Shown here: piece by piece, positions 4,175 to 45,652 of the stretch | Numbering within the stretch: position 1 is the stretch's first letter | Layout: the number at the start of each line of letters is the position of its first letter | DNA from: Sphingobacteriales bacterium | GTDB lineage: Bacteria; Bacteroidota; Bacteroidia; Chitinophagales; CAIOSU01 | Length of the DNA: 64,000 bases | NCBI GenBank assembly: GCA_027483645.1 | Contig: JAIXUD010000007.1 | Coordinates: forward strand, 62,001-126,000 | Direction: 5' to 3' | The notes under the pieces: generated by a model | What the model was told of the DNA's origin: nothing | Database searches by the model: none | What the model saw: only the letters and a program-made list of their open reading frames with translations | Made by a program: the position numbers and the translations under genes

Positions 4175-4410
4175 ACAGTACAATTAAGGTCTTTTACGGG
4201 GCAAAGTAATACAGGTGTAAATTTAGCCAACGAGTTGAGAACCCCGCCAGCCGATATCCACACCTCCCTAGCCCATAAACAAAGCGTTTGTACCATTAAC
4301 GATACATGGTTGCACAATATTGAGTTATTATGTTGGCGGCGTTATTGTGTAGGGGATGGGATATTTTTTGTAAAGGCGGGGTGACTTTGTGGTTTTTTAA
4401 AGAAGCCTAG

Positions 4411-4530
4411 GCAGTCATCCTGAGCTTTTTGTCGAAGGGTGCCAGCGATTGCGATGCCCGCTGGAGCTTTTCGCGGAGGCGGGCTAGGTGCGGGCGCGGG
4501 TGGTGCGGAGGTGGAGTGATGTTTTTGCGG
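4411..4530 (+). repeat. Left copy of an inverted repeat flanking the GHKL gene
   Basis: The stretch begins GTCATCCTGAGC, continues TGTCGAAGGGTGCCAGCGAT and then a gcggg-rich part. It aligns for roughly 110 bp with the reverse complement of 7588-7697. Shared blocks include gtcgaagggtgccagcgatt, aggcgrgc and gtgcggg. The rest of 4184-4770 shows no gene. Confidence 0.75.
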
Positions 4531-4806
4531 GGTTGAAATCCCAACCGCCCCAAAGAGTTTTGTCGTGTACTTTTATATAATGAGGATGCGCGTTTCATGA
4601 ATTTGGGGTAGATGTTTAATCACCAATAAACGGCTGCATACCGTTAGTACCTGGTGGCATCATACCAATAACCATTAGGCGGGAATTATTGCGCTTTGTC
4701 AACGCAGGCGGCAGCAAGGGCAATGATTAGCATCTGCTCGACTTAAATTTACCCGAACATATGTTTTAATGTGATAGCTTCACTATTTTTACTGAAAATA
4801 TCCGAT

Positions 4807-7437
4807 ATGCAAAATACTTATGATGAACATGAGGTTAAGGAATTGTTTGAAGTAGTTTTTAAGCTTTCTGCTAAAGATATTAATGATAAATTAATTAAAG
4901 TTCATAACAGAATCGATATTGCGAAACGCCGATGGTTCTGGGAACTATTACAAAATGCGAAAGATTCGGTCCCCAAAGGAGATGCTGTATCCGTAAGACT
5001 TGTTGTGGAAAATGTTTTGGCACAAAAGAGCGTTAAGTTTTCACACAATGGAAATCCTTTTAAGTATCAAGATGCTAAGAATTTAATTTTCCCCTATTCA
5101 GATAAGAGTGAAGAAGAAGATTCTGACAAATCTGGACGTTTTGGCACAGGTTTTTTAGCAACGCATGTTTTGTCTCCTAAAATAATTGTAAATGGAGTTT
5201 ATATAAATGATTCCAAGGTGTTTGGTTTTGATTTTACGCTGAACCGTTCTTTGGAGGGAAAAGTCGCTATTGCAGACAGTATTAACAATACTTGGAAACA
5301 ATTTCGTGAGAAACGAGTGCAAATAGAAAGTTGGCAGCATAATAAGGAAACGTATGATACATCGTTTAGGTATGAAATAGAAGACGATACCTTAAGTCTG
5401 ATAAAAGATTCTATTGGAGACATAGAGAATTCGTTGCCGTATGCATTAACCTTTGTTCCTAAAATTCGAAAGGTAGAGATTATAGACCAGATAGATAATT
5501 TCCGAATCTCATACCATAAATTAGAGGAGGAAACAAAAGAATTAACAGAACATATTAAAATATATACCATAGAGCGCACTCTGGATAAGAATACAGTTGA
5601 AGAAAAAACCAAAGTTTACATTGTGGTATGTTCAAATGGACAGGTGGATATTGCCATAGAGGTGGGGAAGACTCATGAAGGATTAGAAATAAAGGAACTT
5701 GCTGATTCAACTCCAATGTTATTTAGCCCATTTCCACTAATTGGAATAAATGAATTTAAATTTCCGTTAATTGTAAACAGTAATGAATTTTTGCCAAAGG
5801 AAGAGCGTGACGGAATTTGGCTCAACAATGATGGTTATGGTTCTTTGAATCAGCAATTATTCGAACAAACTGTAGCATTGTACCATGAGTTAGCAACCTT
5901 TGCATCTTCACAAAACTGGTCTAATACTTATCTTTTATTTAAAAGTTTAAAGGAAACGTTAGTCTTACAAGATTTCAACTCGTCATGGTTTAAAGAAAGG
6001 ATACAGGATCCGATAAAAACTTTAGCCAAGACCATCCCTTTAGTTGATCTGGAGAATGGCGAGAGAGAGCCTATGGTTTCTTTATTTTTTCCACATGACA
6101 TAAAGGAGTCTAACCGTATTGTCTTATGGGAATTCTTGCAAAAGCTCTTTCCAAACCAAGTATCAAAAAGAGAAGACGTTAATTATTGGTACAATGTAAC
6201 TTGGCCCGAACTTCCTAGAGTTACCATAGAGTCCTTAACTAAACATTTATCTGGTCTAAGAACCGTAGAAACCTTAGCTGAAAAATTGCAGATTAATGAA
6301 AATGACGCAATAACCTGGTTAAACGGGTATGTTGGGTTCATTTCAAAGGAAGCTCCTGAATTATTAGATTTACAAGAAGCTCAAATTTTACCTGACCAGT
6401 TTGGAAATTTCAAACGAAAGTCTGAACTGGATTTAGATGACGATACTATTGATTTAGAGCTTAAGCTTATTCTAGCTGAAATATCGAAAGTTACTCCCAA
6501 AGTTAGCGATTGGCGGGTTGAAATGCTGGATAAGCGAATTTATCTTGAATTGCCGGAGACAAGGGTTAGAAGTATCTCTAAAATTGGAGTAGCTATTTCT
6601 GACGTAATTAAGGATTTGCTTAATTATGATAACCCAAGTAATGACCATCGGAACATATTTTCTAGACTTCTTAACTGGTGTAATGAAAATAATACAAAAG
6701 CAAGAGAATACTTTAAAGGAATAAAAACTGATGCACTACTTTATAAAACTGCGAACGAAAGTAAGATAAAACACATTACTGATTTACTGCAAAATGATAG
6801 AGATGGGTTAATATCTGTTGAAGAATTATCAAATCTAAATGCGTCGCAAATTGCATTGTTGCAGGATCCAGATTTAGCGTTGAAAGTGCAATTAGGAGAG
6901 CAAGTGTTAGCAGATAAAAATAAACAGCAGATTGAGTTTTTGGTTAGGAAAAAGGTCGGAGACATATTTGAGAAGCTGTTTAAACAGCTAATTAACCGTG
7001 ATGAACGATTTGGCATAAAAAAAGTTGAGGGGGAAGAAGACTTTTTAGTTACTAATATATCTTCGGGAAGAGTTTTTTACATAGAAATTAAATCAATAAA
7101 ACTAGGCGAATCACATATTCAAATGACCCACAAGCAGGTAAAAAAAGCATATTCTTATCATCGAGATTATATACTGTGCGTAGTCCCAAATGATGGCTCT
7201 GATATTGATGAAGCATATTTTCTGCAATATGCTCTCTTTGATAATTTAATAGGAGTGAAATTGACAAATAAAGTCACTCAAGCTATTGCTTTTAAAAGTG
7301 ACGAAGTTGGTCTTAAAGTTGAATTTGAAGATGAATTTTTAGCTGTATATAGTAAATATCGATATAAAATTAGCATTGAAAATAGCATATGGGGCAATTC
7401 TAATTTCGAGTTGTTCAAATTGGAATTACTTAATTAA
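4807..7437 (+). CDS. GHKL (Hsp90/MORC/sacsin-like) ATPase with C-terminal DUF3883/PD-(D/E)xK-like domain
   Basis: This 876-residue protein (a GTG at 4771 would add 12) opens with a GHKL ATPase domain. The N-box is WELLQNAKDS (Glu46, Asn50, Asp53). The usual DxGxG box is replaced by SHNGNPF at about 79-85, and the lid-like motif is GRFGTGFLATH at 110-120. A long helical middle of about 550 residues follows. The C-terminus (about 720-876) contains FYIEIKS with Glu760-x-Lys762 and an upstream Asp745, resembling the nuclease fold of DUF3883 (NO VEIN C-terminal) domains. The gene is far richer in A+T than its neighbours, stands alone, and sits between inverted repeats. Large ATPases of this kind are often found among bacterial defence genes; that role here is inference. 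Confidence 0.8.
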   Translation: MQNTYDEHEVKELFEVVFKLSAKDINDKLIKVHNRIDIAKRRWFWELLQNAKDSVPKGDAVSVRLVVENVLAQKSVKFSHNGNPFKYQDAKNLIFPYSDKSEEEDSDKSGRFGTGFLATHVLSPKIIVNGVYINDSKVFGFDFTLNRSLEGKVAIADSINNTWKQFREKRVQIESWQHNKETYDTSFRYEIEDDTLSLIKDSIGDIENSLPYALTFVPKIRKVEIIDQIDNFRISYHKLEEETKELTEHIKIYTIERTLDKNTVEEKTKVYIVVCSNGQVDIAIEVGKTHEGLEIKELADSTPMLFSPFPLIGINEFKFPLIVNSNEFLPKEERDGIWLNNDGYGSLNQQLFEQTVALYHELATFASSQNWSNTYLLFKSLKETLVLQDFNSSWFKERIQDPIKTLAKTIPLVDLENGEREPMVSLFFPHDIKESNRIVLWEFLQKLFPNQVSKREDVNYWYNVTWPELPRVTIESLTKHLSGLRTVETLAEKLQINENDAITWLNGYVGFISKEAPELLDLQEAQILPDQFGNFKRKSELDLDDDTIDLELKLILAEISKVTPKVSDWRVEMLDKRIYLELPETRVRSISKIGVAISDVIKDLLNYDNPSNDHRNIFSRLLNWCNENNTKAREYFKGIKTDALLYKTANESKIKHITDLLQNDRDGLISVEELSNLNASQIALLQDPDLALKVQLGEQVLADKNKQQIEFLVRKKVGDIFEKLFKQLINRDERFGIKKVEGEEDFLVTNISSGRVFYIEIKSIKLGESHIQMTHKQVKKAYSYHRDYILCVVPNDGSDIDEAYFLQYALFDNLIGVKLTNKVTQAIAFKSDEVGLKVEFEDEFLAVYSKYRYKISIENSIWGNSNFELFKLELLN

Positions 7438-7587
7438 ATGTAAAGGAAGGCTCCCCTATATAGTGTAAATATTATAGTTATATCTGTCTCAAATTTTTCA
7501 ATTTGTGTCTACCATGAGACAATCACTGACTGCGAGTACAGCATATTCAATGTGTAAAACCTGGTACTTCCTATCGCCGCACAATAT

Positions 7588-7697
7588 TCAATCGAAACCC
7601 CACCTTCTTCACCCGCACTTTGCTCGCCTACGTGAAAAACTTTGGCTCGCTTAGCAATCGCTGGCACCCTTCGACAGGCTCAGGGTGACATGCTGGT
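7588..7697 (-). repeat. Right copy of the inverted repeat flanking the GHKL gene
   Basis: Read on the minus strand this is GTCACCCTGAGCCTGTCGAA followed by gggtgccagcgattgc and a degenerate gtgcgggtg tail, matching 4411-4530. The core resembles a GTCATCCTGAGC...TCGAAGG family; a short related piece lies at about 23528-23558. The rest of 7438-7747 shows no gene. Confidence 0.75.
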
Positions 7698-7721
7698 TTC
7701 CACAAAAAATTGCAGCAATCC

Positions 7722-7748
7722 GTGGACCATCGACTGTGGACCGTCGAC
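7722..7748. repeat. GGACCATGG-type word repeat, locus 2
   Basis: The words gtggaccatcgac and gtggaccgtcgac directly abut the lysC stop codon (TAG, 7748-7750). Confidence 0.7.
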
Positions 7749-9792: not shown

Positions 9793-12141
<2,349 letters not shown>

Positions 12142-29439: not shown

Positions 29440-30879
29440 TTAGGTAATGCTCAACTGAATCTTCTTTTGAATCTCCTTTACGCTGTCGCGGAAGTCGCCA
29501 TCGGTATCGATGAGGTTCTGCACCGCTTGGCAAGAGTGGATTACCGTGCTGTGGTCTCGGCCACCGAAGTGCTTGCCGATAACCTTGAGCGAGTTCTTGG
29601 TGAAGTTTTTGGCCAAGAACATGGACAGTTGGCGCGCCTGAACAATGGCGCGCTTGCGGGTCTTTTCCTTCAGCTTATCCACCGGTATCTCAAAGTGCTC
29701 GCATACGGTTTTCTGTATGTACTCAATAGATACCTCGCGGCTGATGCTCTTCACAAAGTTTTTGATAATCTTCTTGGCCAGCTCAATATCAATCTCCTTT
29801 TTGTTGAGGCTAGCCTGTGCCAATAGCGATATTAGCGCACCTTCTAGCTCACGGATGTTGGTATTGATGTTATAGGCCACAAATTCCACTACCTCCCTAG
29901 GTAGTTCTATGCCATCGGCATACATTTTCTTCTCGAGGATGGCGATTCGTGTCTCAAAATCAGGCACCTGCAAATCGGCAGAAAGACCCCACTTAAAACG
30001 GCTCAACAGGCGCTCTTCCATACCTTCCAGGTCGCGCGGGCTGCGGTCGCTGGTTAGTATCAACTGCTTGCCACCTTGGTGCAGGTGGTTGAACACGTGG
30101 AAGAAGATATCCTGTGTTTTGTCTTTGTTCGCAAAAAACTGGATGTCGTCCACTATCAGCACATCTATGAGCTGGTAGAAGTGGATAAAATCGTTCACTG
30201 CGTTATTCTTCAGGGCATCAATAAACTGGTTAGTGAATTTCTCAGAAGAAACGTAAAGAACCGTTTTGTTAGGGAAATGCTGCTTAAACTGGTTGCCAAT
30301 AGCCTGCGCCAAGTGGGTTTTGCCCAATCCTACGCCACCATACACTACCAACGGGTTGAAGGCCGTGGTGCCCGGTGGCTTGGTAGCCACGGCAAAGCCT
30401 GCCGAACGTGCCAAACGGTTGCAATCACCCTCCACAAAGTTGTCGAAGTTGTAAGCGGGTTGCAATTGCGACTCGATGTTCACCTTCTTGAGGCCCGGGA
30501 TGATGAACGGATTTTTGATTGAGTTCCCCATAACTAAAGGTGCGGCTACTTCAGGATTTTTGTTATTGCCCGTGTTGTAGTTGGGGTAGTTTACGGTAAA
30601 CGGTTTCGCGTTTCCGTTGCTAGTGTTATCCACCACAATACGGTACTCCAATCGTGCATCAATGCCCAGTTCGCGTTTAATGGTTTTGCGAAGCAAACCT
30701 ACATAGTGCTCTTCCAGCCATTCGTAAAAGAATTGGCTAGGCACTTGTATGGTGAGCACGCTATTTTCCAGCCTTACTGGCTTAATAGGTTCGAACCAGG
30801 TTTTGAACGATTGCAAGCTAACATTATCCCGAATGATTTTAAGACAGTTTTTCCATACATCTTCATAGGTAGTTTCCAT
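29440..30879 (-). CDS. dnaA: Chromosomal replication initiator DnaA
   Basis: From ATG 30879 the protein has 479 residues and starts METTYEDVWKNCLKII; earlier in-frame starts at 30885 and 30960 exist, the latter reading through a hairpin. Domain I is followed by a short linker, then the AAA+ domain with GGVGLGKTHLAQAIGN (Walker A), VLIVDDIQF (Walker B) and ILTSDRSPRDLEGMEERLLSR, and the DNA-binding domain IV with GGRDHSTVIHSCQAV. It is monocistronic between a terminator and a palindrome-rich upstream region. Confidence 0.97.
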   Translation of the reverse strand: METTYEDVWKNCLKIIRDNVSLQSFKTWFEPIKPVRLENSVLTIQVPSQFFYEWLEEHYVGLLRKTIKRELGIDARLEYRIVVDNTSNGNAKPFTVNYPNYNTGNNKNPEVAAPLVMGNSIKNPFIIPGLKKVNIESQLQPAYNFDNFVEGDCNRLARSAGFAVATKPPGTTAFNPLVVYGGVGLGKTHLAQAIGNQFKQHFPNKTVLYVSSEKFTNQFIDALKNNAVNDFIHFYQLIDVLIVDDIQFFANKDKTQDIFFHVFNHLHQGGKQLILTSDRSPRDLEGMEERLLSRFKWGLSADLQVPDFETRIAILEKKMYADGIELPREVVEFVAYNINTNIRELEGALISLLAQASLNKKEIDIELAKKIIKNFVKSISREVSIEYIQKTVCEHFEIPVDKLKEKTRKRAIVQARQLSMFLAKNFTKNSLKVIGKHFGGRDHSTVIHSCQAVQNLIDTDGDFRDSVKEIQKKIQLSIT

Positions 30880-30923
30880 GTACATAAACTGTTTTATTGA
30901 ATTGGTTATAGCTTCGGAATTTC

Positions 30924-30952
30924 TCACACCCGCCCTTTCGGAGGGGGTGTGA
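30924..30952 (-). promoter_or_regulatory. Hairpin in the dnaA leader region
   Basis: TCACACCC (30924-30931) and GGGTGTGA (30945-30952) form a perfect 8-bp stem, 45 nt before the dnaA ATG. It could shape the 5' untranslated region; it has no T-tract on the minus strand. Confidence 0.5.
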
Positions 30953-30960
30953 AATTGCAT

Positions 30961-43756: not shown

Positions 43757-45652
43757 TCAGTTCATCAAACCCACGCTGCGCTTAATAAACTCGGTGAGCT
43801 TCTGGCCACGCAATAGGTTTTGGCTTAGTAAGGCCAAATCGTACAATTGGGTGGTGAGGCGGGTTTGCTCGGCAGCTTCCGCGCTTAGCAGCTTGGTTAT
43901 TAGCGGATGGTTGGTGTTTACTACCAGGTTCAGTTGCTCGGGCAGGTTCCCGAAACCAAAAGCACCGCCACCGCCGCCGCTAACGGCCGCCATGTCTTTC
44001 ATGCGGCGCATCCACTCGGGCTTGGTAATGAGCACCGGTTGCTCCTCTGGGCTTAGTGCCTTGGTTACCACGCTTACGTGCGCATCGCTAATGCTATCGG
44101 TAAATATGTTGCGAACCTTGTCCTCGTCTTCCTTGCTCAATACCGATTCCGGCGTTTCATCCTTCTCAATCAGGTTGTTCAAGGTATCGGCATCTACGCG
44201 CTTGAAGCTGGTTTTCTCCAGTTTGCCTTCCAGTTGGTTGATAAAATGGTTATCCAGCATATTAGTGAGCAACACTACATCATATCCGCGGCCTTTGGCA
44301 GCTTGTATAAATGCATCTTGATCGTCGGCATTGGTGGCGTAAAGCACCACCGCCTGGCCATTCTTATCGGTTTGGTTGGCTTTGATATGCTCAGTATATT
44401 CTTCAAAGGTGAAGTGCTTGCCTTCGGTATTTTTCAGCAGGGCAAAGTTCTTTGCACGGTCGTAAAACTTCTCGTCGCTTATCATACCAAACTTCACGAA
44501 AAGCTCAATCTGATCCCACTTGGTCTCAAAATCTTCACGGCTGCTGTTAAATAGCTCTTGCAGCTTGTCGGCAACCTTTTTGGTAATGTGGGCGTTGATT
44601 TTCTTCACGTTCGGGTCACCCTGCAAGTAGCTGCGCGACACGTTCAAAGGAATATCCGGAGAATCGATCACGCCGTGCATATGCATCAAAAACTCCGGCA
44701 CAATGTTCTCCACCGCATCGGTCACAAACACTTGGTTGCTGTACAACTGTATTTTGTTGCGCTGCATCTCGAAGTTGTTCCCCACCTTAGGGAAATACAG
44801 TATGCCTGTAAGGGTGAACGGGAAATCGACATTTAAATGGATCCAGAACAATGGCGGCTCGCTAAATGGGTATAGCTCGCGATAGAAGTCTTGGTAATCC
44901 TCGTCCTTCAATTCGCTTGGTTGGCGGGTCCAGGCCGGGTTAGTATTGTTGATGATGTTTGGTACTTGTATGGTCTCGTCTTTCGCGTCCTCGCCTTCGC
45001 CAACGGTATTGGTTTGGTCGGTAGTGCCAAATTGGATGGGCACTGGCAAGAATTTGCAATACTTATCCAGCAAGGTTTGTACGCGGTGCTGCTCTAGGTA
45101 TTCTTTGTTTTCTTCGTTGATGTATAGGATGATGTCCGTGCCACGCTCTTCCTTTTCTACCTCCTCAATGGTATATGATGGGCTACCATCGCAACTCCAC
45201 TTAACCGCCTGGGCACCATCTTTATAGCTTTTGGTTACAATTTCAACATGGTCAGCCACCATAAAGGCACTATAAAAGCCCAAGCCAAAATGACCGATAA
45301 TGTTGGTTTTGTCACCCGCATCGGCCTTCTTGAATTTATCCAAAAACTCCGTAGCGCTGCTAAAGGCGATTTGGTTGATATACTTTTTTACTTCGTCGGC
45401 CGTCATACCGATGCCTTTGTCGCTAACCGTTAAGGTCTTGGCTGTCTCGTCAATGGTGATTTCGATATTAATGTTGCCTATTTCGCCCTTCACCTCGCCT
45501 AAGGCTGATAGCTTCTTAAGCTTTTGGGTAGCATCAGTAGCGTTGCTCACCAATTCGCGAAGGAAGATTTCGTGGTCAGAATACAGGAATTTCTTGATTA
45601 TAGGGAAGATGTTTTCGGTCTGAACCTGTATGTGTCCGGTTTCCAATGTCAT
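43757..45652 (-). CDS. htpG: Chaperone protein HtpG (Hsp90)
   Basis: This 631-residue chaperone has the GHKL ATPase N-domain: FLRELVSNATDATQKL (N-box), LTVSDKGIGMTADE (DxGxG) and IGHFGLGFYSAFMVAD (lid). The middle domain contains PLFWIHLNVDFPFTLTGILYFP and NKIQLYSNQVFVTDAVENI. The C-terminal dimerisation domain ends SVGLMN. A Gly-rich GGGGGAFGFG insert at about residue 557 is in a loop. Its intact DxGxG makes a useful contrast with the altered motif in the GHKL gene at 4.8 kb. Confidence 0.97.
   Translation of the reverse strand: MTLETGHIQVQTENIFPIIKKFLYSDHEIFLRELVSNATDATQKLKKLSALGEVKGEIGNINIEITIDETAKTLTVSDKGIGMTADEVKKYINQIAFSSATEFLDKFKKADAGDKTNIIGHFGLGFYSAFMVADHVEIVTKSYKDGAQAVKWSCDGSPSYTIEEVEKEERGTDIILYINEENKEYLEQHRVQTLLDKYCKFLPVPIQFGTTDQTNTVGEGEDAKDETIQVPNIINNTNPAWTRQPSELKDEDYQDFYRELYPFSEPPLFWIHLNVDFPFTLTGILYFPKVGNNFEMQRNKIQLYSNQVFVTDAVENIVPEFLMHMHGVIDSPDIPLNVSRSYLQGDPNVKKINAHITKKVADKLQELFNSSREDFETKWDQIELFVKFGMISDEKFYDRAKNFALLKNTEGKHFTFEEYTEHIKANQTDKNGQAVVLYATNADDQDAFIQAAKGRGYDVVLLTNMLDNHFINQLEGKLEKTSFKRVDADTLNNLIEKDETPESVLSKEDEDKVRNIFTDSISDAHVSVVTKALSPEEQPVLITKPEWMRRMKDMAAVSGGGGGAFGFGNLPEQLNLVVNTNHPLITKLLSAEAAEQTRLTTQLYDLALLSQNLLRGQKLTEFIKRSVGLMN

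Follow-up and report, generated by a model that had tools for sequence, protein, structure and literature searches.

What is a single AT-rich gene doing between two housekeeping genes of a Sphingobacteriales bacterium, and how might its product work? The gene lies in a 64,000-nt stretch of contig JAIXUD010000007.1, referred to here as the window, and is an intact frame of 876 codons from an ATG, in agreement with a preliminary description of this DNA; an alternative GTG start at 4771 would give a protein of 888 amino acids. The encoded protein joins a sacsin/Hsp90-like ATPase to a PD-(D/E)xK domain of the NOV_C/DUF3883 type (two names that we take to denote one family). We propose, with a probability of about 0.68, that the gene was acquired horizontally and by itself provides defence against phage (or mobile elements), its product being a TmtA (Tiamat) protein in which an ATPase clamp would license the fused nuclease. 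Feature coordinates are collected in Table 1.

The preliminary description had suggested that proteins of this kind occur in defence gene collections, and the PADLOC TmtA profile PDLC03967 indeed matched the window protein at E 1.3e-143 (478.8 bits). Two further TmtA models matched at E 1.3e-14 and 1.6e-6, and a fourth at 0.031. The PDLC03967 alignment joins residues 14-559, the N-terminal ~60% of the protein, to positions 13-551 of the 1,063 in the model; coverage of the profile is likewise partial in P0002-P0004, because the C-terminus varies within the family, and we make no claim that the window protein shares the complete architecture of the profile. C-termini of the NOV_C type are found in other TmtA models too (residues 1001-1073 of P0003 align to PDLC03965). 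Five full-length relatives, from Flavobacterium, Parachlamydiaceae, Fulvivirga, Splendidivirga and Flavobacteriales, are 49-53% identical to the window protein, the one from Parachlamydiaceae coming from a metagenome-assembled genome (MAG) and so possibly misbinned. For comparisons across the family, we scanned named genomes, kept the best 80 of the 322 relatives obtained and added 2 from viral contigs, 82 loci in all. Alignment and tree contain 63 of these plus the window protein (64 members); the other 19 comprise 11 that are short, open-ended or split, 7 close to included members, and the intact L102. Counts of C-terminal types and partner genes take in all 82 loci and the window protein, 83 proteins in total. 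In a tree of residues 1-545, the window protein falls in a six-member clade (SH-aLRT 100) with the same C-terminal type in all six. Judging by its sequence, the gene adds a member to a defence family that is already known and whose mechanism is given as unknown in the accessible parts of three reports (PMC12926258, PMC10855318, PMC10482375).

We found that both ends of the protein match profiles and that both folds are predicted, as the preliminary description had anticipated in joining a GHKL ATPase to a DUF3883-type nuclease. At the N-terminal end, the NCBIfam profile for the sacsin N-terminal ATP-binding-like domain matched residues 41-126 at E 3.9e-17, above its own cut-off; a sequence search of the Protein Data Bank (PDB) with the whole protein returned three sub-threshold matches only. 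An AlphaFold model of the whole protein (64 sequences, pLDDT 85.2, pTM 0.67) matched sacsin SR1 best (Z 15.7, 171-173 residues aligned at 3.4 A), followed by Hsp90/TRAP1, SMCHD1, topoisomerase VI (topo VI) and MORC at Z about 12.5-14. Among the 50 matches listed, proteins with a Bergerat fold (sacsin SR1, Hsp90, MORC, topo VI and GyrB) span Z 12.5-15.7, and the alignments to Hsp90/TRAP1, SMCHD1, MORC and topo VI extend to about residue 370-484. The predicted structure thereby supports a sacsin/Hsp90-type GHKL ATPase fold for the N-terminal part.

Residues of catalytic type accompany this fold. In the 64 aligned members E46, N50, D53, F85, S98, G110, F112-F116, T119, H120 and R334 are invariant, so that the Glu and Asn of the GHKL N-box and the Gly-rich lid are all present (E46, N50, D53, G110, F112-F116). 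The patterns RW.WELLQ (R42-Q49) and G.FGTGF were used to pick the loci, and conservation within them was partly chosen; N50, D53, H80, F85, T119, H120 and R334 lie outside both. We take E46, N50 and D53 to fit the E-x3-N-x2-D box of Hsp90, and R334 may, we presume, be the basic finger of an S5 domain. The motifs stand where the preliminary description had placed them (WELLQNAKDS at 45-54, SHNGNP at 79-84, GRFGTGFLATH at 110-120, and D745 and E760-x-K762 near the other end), and htpG of the same window (43757-45652, minus strand; named by eye) does carry an intact DKGIG at residue 78. Its remark that the DxGxG box is unusual was correct as far as the change goes, but SHNGNP is not peculiar to this gene: H80 is kept in 63 of 64 members, 56 have N at position 81 (6 have D and 2 have T), and HNG takes the place of DxGxG family-wide. 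Damage to this one copy is rejected as an explanation. Sacsin SR1, an animal domain, is the closest solved fold of the ATPase half, but the two are only 12-14% identical, and sacsin is described, in the part of the source available, as a very large, chaperone-like protein that includes a HEPN domain (PMC3710099).

At the other end, Pfam NOV_C (DUF3883) matched residues 745-799 with 34.7 bits against a cut-off of 22.1 (E 1.9e-8). The plant protein NO VEIN is presumably kin to this domain, to go by the Pfam domain name. Ten members of the family, the window protein included, end in this way (type B, below). NOV_C matched all ten at E up to 0.1, some of them below cut-off (P0002 at 19.9 bits), and G718, E722, D745, E760, K762, S763, Q777, A781, C791 and F870 are invariant among them. 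An AlphaFold model of the C-terminus (197 residues, 10 sequences, pLDDT 81.8) gave Holliday-junction resolvases as its top fold matches (Hjc 2eo0, Z 11.3, 112 residues at 2.5 A), with a chain of the SPARDA complex (Z 9.8), RecU (9.5) and restriction enzymes following. Foldseek agreed at modest scores (best E 9e-4, the sole match under 0.001), and a profile search of PDB sequences gave three sub-threshold matches (best E 0.26), two of which are an fdxN-element excision factor and the ST1444 resolvase. Hjc, RecU and the SPARDA chain resemble the domain in fold (Z 8.4-11.3) but are 8-19% identical and have other partners and triggers. The model and profile support a PD-(D/E)xK fold of the NOV_C/DUF3883 type, and we regard the domain as a predicted nuclease; DUF3883 is called a novel restriction endonuclease domain in the portion of PMC3710099 that is accessible. 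Membership in Shedu (SduA) was also considered and rejected, as DUF4263 matched neither the window protein (E up to 1) nor the ten type-B C-termini (E up to 0.1).

An experimental precedent for how the window protein could work is VcSduA, a GHKL-Shedu protein of type I-D formerly known as paraMORC3 (PMC12137116), in which a GHKL ATPase, a middle domain and a C-terminal PD-(D/E)xK domain follow one another in a single protein, in the same order. Changing its ATPase glutamate (E27A) or its nuclease lysine (K557A) abolished phage defence, and its growth data were called consistent with direct restriction of phage by the authors (PMC12137116). The analogy is incomplete: the nuclease of VcSduA is DUF4263, whereas that of the window protein is NOV_C/DUF3883, and VcSduA is described with motifs I-IV, whereas the window protein lacks the Asp of DxGxG.

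Composition and distribution both make the gene look foreign. Its GC content is 33.8%, against 47.5% for the remainder of the window, confirming that it is richer in A+T than its surroundings. Segments of 2,631 nt free of the AT-rich island (n = 558) average 47.5% (SD 2.3, minimum 41.1%), every one of the 25 lowest-GC segments listed overlaps the gene, and no stretch of the window is more AT-rich. Low GC is typical of TmtA relatives: in the 75 of 82 loci with more than 4 kb of flank, the genes average 34.0% and the flanks 39.3%, with the gene below its flanks in 64 of 75. The window gene is the only TmtA homologue of its genome, with no second copy. Among 99 genomes searched (its own included), it was found in its own and 3 others, all of other bacterial families. 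Rather than being a fixture of the genus, it is missing in all 4 congeners (78-97% complete), as it is in 2 of 2 genomes of other genera of the family. An order-wide profile search matched 14 of 396 genomes at E 1e-20, its own included, and none of the 6 other genomes of the bacterial family was among these. On the tree of residues 1-545, phylum labels need 8 changes, a pattern consistent with lateral transfer. Horizontal acquisition of the window gene is thus supported by foreign composition and by absence from relatives.

Relatives were also sought on mobile DNA. The window protein had 0 matches in 50,697 phage records and no match in PHROGs; 2 relatives were found in viral contigs (none in a first scan with a single sequence). 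Three plasmid records also hold relatives, with coverage of 59-60% in two of them and 16% in the third. A single gene separates the relative L062, on a conjugative plasmid of Dolichospermum, from an annotated tyrosine recombinase, and L063, on a Calothrix plasmid, has an annotated TIR protein nearby. In the parts available of two papers, Tiamat is reported to be almost always chromosomal in Actinobacteria (PMC10482375) and, in Pseudomonas, to be over-represented in genomic-island hotspots (PMC12629846).

The N-terminal part of the family carries more than one kind of ending. Sorted by their last 200 residues, the 64 aligned members fall into type A (48), type B (10, the window protein included), type C (4) and two others; typed by profile, the 83 proteins comprise 57 A, 10 B, 4 C and 12 untyped, of which L095 and L128 are intact and the other ten short, open-ended or split. 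Mapped onto the N-terminal tree, the types require 7 changes against a minimum of 3, and type B alone requires 4, of which 3 are forced by supported branches. The exchange can be seen in a single pair: L071 (type B) and L075 (type A) are 42-80% identical per 50 residues up to about residue 650 and 12-17% identical beyond. The type-A C-terminus belongs to no Pfam family in the 22 members scanned (scattered matches, best E 0.012) and has no PDB sequence match (best E 0.093).

A downstream gene goes with the type-A ending. In 47 of 82 loci, a same-strand gene starts between -22 and +38 nt from the TmtA stop, and the 47 products form one single-linkage family. Seven of these proteins were scanned, and SLFN_AlbA_2 passed its cut-off in six of them, falling short of it in L102. 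Behind the AlbA_2 part are four groups of modules. The largest (32 proteins) has a conserved Rx4H (R296 and H301 in 31 of 32) and is read as HEPN-like, although no Pfam HEPN model matched in the three scanned; the three of this form scanned with PADLOC (L073, L075, L121) had no match there either. A second group (7 proteins) holds L118 and L145 with TIR_2, a third (4 proteins) holds L081 with a CAP12/Pycsar TIR, and the fourth (4 proteins) includes L102, with a match to the LmuA profile at E 1.4e-6. These partners sit behind type-A genes in loci within L072-L146.

Partners were counted by a profile search of all frames of at least 60 amino acids in the 82 loci and in the window. They accompany 48 of 57 type-A members, 0 of 10 type B (9 loci and the window), 0 of 4 type C and 3 of 12 untyped. 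Compared with a narrower count that admits partners no more than 60 nt from the TmtA frame end, this search adds the type-A L084, where the partner overlaps the end of the TmtA frame, and L085, L092 and L131, where it follows short or split, untyped frames; five of the 12 untyped loci end less than 100 nt past the frame and could not show a partner. On the narrower count, the partner is present in 47 of 57 type-A loci against 0 of 14 of types B and C (Fisher p 8e-9, with relatedness ignored). The window protein, with its type-B nuclease end, therefore differs from most of its relatives, which have a type-A end and a partner gene. In the literature accessible to us, which was available in part, we recognised no description of TmtA with an AlbA_2 partner, which does not make the partner new; the accessible part of PMC12839542 cites a preprint of 2025 about Schlafens of bacteria in phage defence. 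The genome that carries the window gene has one SLFN_AlbA_2 gene (C16:85763-86104, in a 574-codon open frame), away from the TmtA gene. In L092 and L139 the TmtA relative is split into two frames, the second directly after the first and carrying more of the protein.

This pattern suggests that the TmtA family is one sensor with an effector either in trans or, as in the window gene, fused in cis. In the window protein, residues 1 to ~640 would form the sacsin/Hsp90-like clamp, which would sense a product of infection; ATP binding or dimer closure would then license the fused Mrr/Hjc-like PD-(D/E)xK nuclease to cut nucleic acid, either as direct restriction of invader DNA or as suicidal cleavage of the host's own nucleic acid. 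We assign the effector role to the nuclease because it stands where other members have an unnamed end and a toxic-type partner, and for the window protein we infer ATP hydrolysis, sensing, dimerisation, nuclease activity and phage defence. Extended to the whole family, TmtA would be a common infection sensor, built on a divergent clamp with HNG for DxGxG, and would drive effectors that can be exchanged: either an AlbA_2 operon partner acting in trans by its HEPN-like, TIR or nuclease-like module, or a PD-(D/E)xK nuclease domain fused in cis, the forms having been swapped at about residue 650 more than once; we regard this broader statement as evenly poised between right and wrong. The wider partner count does not alter that assessment, because it lowers the contrast in untyped loci and not that between type A and types B and C. 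Perhaps the unnamed type-A C-terminus docks the AlbA_2 partner. The idea of cis and trans forms has a precedent because paraMORCs have been described with a TIR domain either fused or encoded next door (paraMORC4), besides the GHKL and S5 domains with a C-terminal restriction enzyme-fold E-D-ExK domain of paraMORC3 (PMC2292703, as far as accessible). The paraMORCs, which we set beside TmtA by description only, differ in having conserved ATP-binding motifs (PMC2292703, same portion).

Several observations weigh against the proposed defence function and mechanism. Tiamat calls in plant-associated metagenomes all fell on plant sequence, according to the available part of PMC12409356, so defence does not follow from a profile match. 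The genes adjoining the window gene, exbB and lysC, are both housekeeping, context having been read for these two only. The narrower partner count contains only 3 independent tree contrasts on supported branches, 0 against the cis/trans pattern and 1-3 with it, which puts significance out of reach. Nine of the 57 type-A members have no partner, among them the cyanobacterial L101, L104, L113 and L126 (L113 with only 352 nt of sequence past the TmtA gene); a partner is thus either dispensable or, in some cases, unlinked. Finally, Pfam HATPase models score under their cut-offs and the adenine-binding Asp of DxGxG is replaced across the family, so ATP binding is not assured. The replacement by SHNGNP could mean a pseudoenzyme or a decaying gene, with no ATP turnover and a protein that is a scaffold or inactive, but we find this improbable, given that HNG is kept family-wide, that E46, N50, D53 and the lid are invariant, and that the 876-codon frame is intact with full-length relatives ~50% identical and nuclease residues invariant.

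Two other functions were considered. The gene could be a weapon kept by mobile elements to exclude rivals or enforce their own retention, here a stranded cargo gene; this is unlikely as an alternative, and it is compatible with phage defence. P0002/L071 adjoins a gene that we interpret as a tyrosine recombinase (of the 96 ORFs neighbouring type-B loci, one matches Phage_integrase), relatives are on three plasmid records, and L066 and L068 appear, by eye, to have further element-like genes in common. Set against this, no recombinase-like open reading frame (ORF) adjoins the window gene by eye, and the phage, viral-contig and Actinobacteria results given above point the other way. The fit of the N-terminal half to sacsin SR1 and then Hsp90/TRAP1, along with stress roles proposed for sacsin and its HEPN domain (PMC3710099, available portion), would also suit a bacterial sacsin/Hsp90-like chaperone for protein quality control or stress, its nuclease-like domain answering unfolded protein or stress and not phage. 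We consider this quite unlikely: a gene missing from the 6 other genomes of its family and present in 14 of 396 genomes of its order (its own included), AT-rich in most hosts and with toxic-type modules exchanged among its relatives, behaves like an accessory conflict gene.

The neighbours of the nine other type-B loci include, among 96 ORFs and with no control set, AbiEii, a TIR-like gene, DNA methylases and candidate defence families. In L066 (388-8273; the MAG labelled Parachlamydiaceae), a same-strand run holds an AbiEii nucleotidyltransferase, a GHKL ATPase with a weak HSDR_N-like end, a kinase-like gene (by eye), the TmtA relative and an HNH_5 gene. By eye, one set of element genes, a GVGKT-type ATPase with two neighbours, seems to recur close to the TmtA relative in both L066 (8690-10842) and L068 (11936-14243).

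Is the window gene a discrete module? The preliminary description had it as a single-gene insertion bounded by inverted repeats of about 110 bp at 4411-4530 and 7588-7697. Acquisition stands, as does the inverted repeat, but its arms align over 79 nt at 76% identity and are not the gene's boundaries. The repeat, with the core CCCTTCGACARGCTCAGGG, occurs in 23 places in the same genome, both arms among them, and its core in 6 of 39 other genomes searched. Searched with the right arm, the genome gave 23 matches (itself counted) on 9 contigs, and 16 of the 22 others outscore the arm that faces it, so the repeats do not mark the window gene: they are copies of a dispersed genomic repeat, not element ends. 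Inverted arms on both sides would suit a transposon-like module with terminal repeats of its own, a disfavoured explanation that we hold to be very improbable, since, beyond these copy numbers, the genome has one TmtA homologue and no other repeat copy flanks one.

The locus itself has been rearranged. Immediately beside the gene are exbB and lysC. All 6 relatives of the bacterial family have lysC; in congeners G002 and G003 an alpha-amylase gene (named by eye) comes after it, with one small gene between in G002. Around lysC, the stretches read in these 6 relatives showed no exbB, the G001 contig ending ~200 nt past lysC. exbB-exbD adjoins dnaA (named by eye) in congener G003, and the matching dnaA of the window is at 29440-30960. 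Because lysC and exbB have other neighbours there, the exbB-lysC junction is not common to congeners readable on both sides, and the window gene sits at the meeting point of two rearranged neighbourhoods (window 4184-4806 and 7438-7747). The alpha-amylase of the lysC neighbourhood is now on contig C1 of the genome that carries the window gene (443423-445102), 146 bp from another repeat copy, which stands on the amylase side facing away from the old lysC junction. Repeat-mediated rearrangement is possible. A promoter and terminator scan found 12 promoter-like sites against 11.0 in shuffles and 1 terminator-like site against 2.2. Elsewhere in the window, 9793-12141 encodes a secreted-looking protein of 782 amino acids with long Gly-rich, collagen-like repeats (GATGATG...) and up to 60% GC.

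Table 1. Features of the TmtA-family locus, in window coordinates
Feature	Position	Strand	Basis
TmtA/Tiamat-family gene	4807..7437	+	ORF; PADLOC TmtA PDLC03967 profile; five full-length relatives (49-53% identity)
GHKL ATPase domain, ~residues 22-238	4870..5520	+	NCBIfam sacsin-type profile; sacsin SR1 fold match
N-box, W43-F-W-E46-L-L-Q-N50-A-K-D53	4933..4965	+	E46, N50, D53 in 64/64 members
G1-box equivalent, F78-S-H80-N81-G82-N-P-F85, in place of DxGxG	5038..5061	+	Family alignment
ATP-lid motif, G110-R-F-G-T-G-F116	5134..5154	+	Positions 110, 112-116 in 64/64
Middle region, ~residues 239-640, S5-like then helical, invariant R334	5521..6726	+	Alignment; structure matches
Predicted PD-(D/E)xK nuclease domain with leading helix, residues 700-876; E722, D745, E760-x-K762, Q777	6904..7434	+	NOV_C profile; conservation; fold
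AT-rich, foreign-composition stretch	4740..7520 (approximate ends)		GC profile
Dispersed genomic repeat, left copy (context only, outside the system)	4430..4508		Arm alignment
Dispersed genomic repeat, right copy, inverted (context only)	7598..7676		Arm alignment; genome search

The pattern across the family makes an unexplained defence system testable: the N-terminal 640 residues would sense and switch, and the remainder or a partner would kill. Comparison points to E46 and K762 as residues for mutation and sets the cis and trans arrangements side by side. If it is true that a sacsin-like clamp serves as a phage sensor, this would bear on the origin of animal sacsin and of plant NO VEIN.

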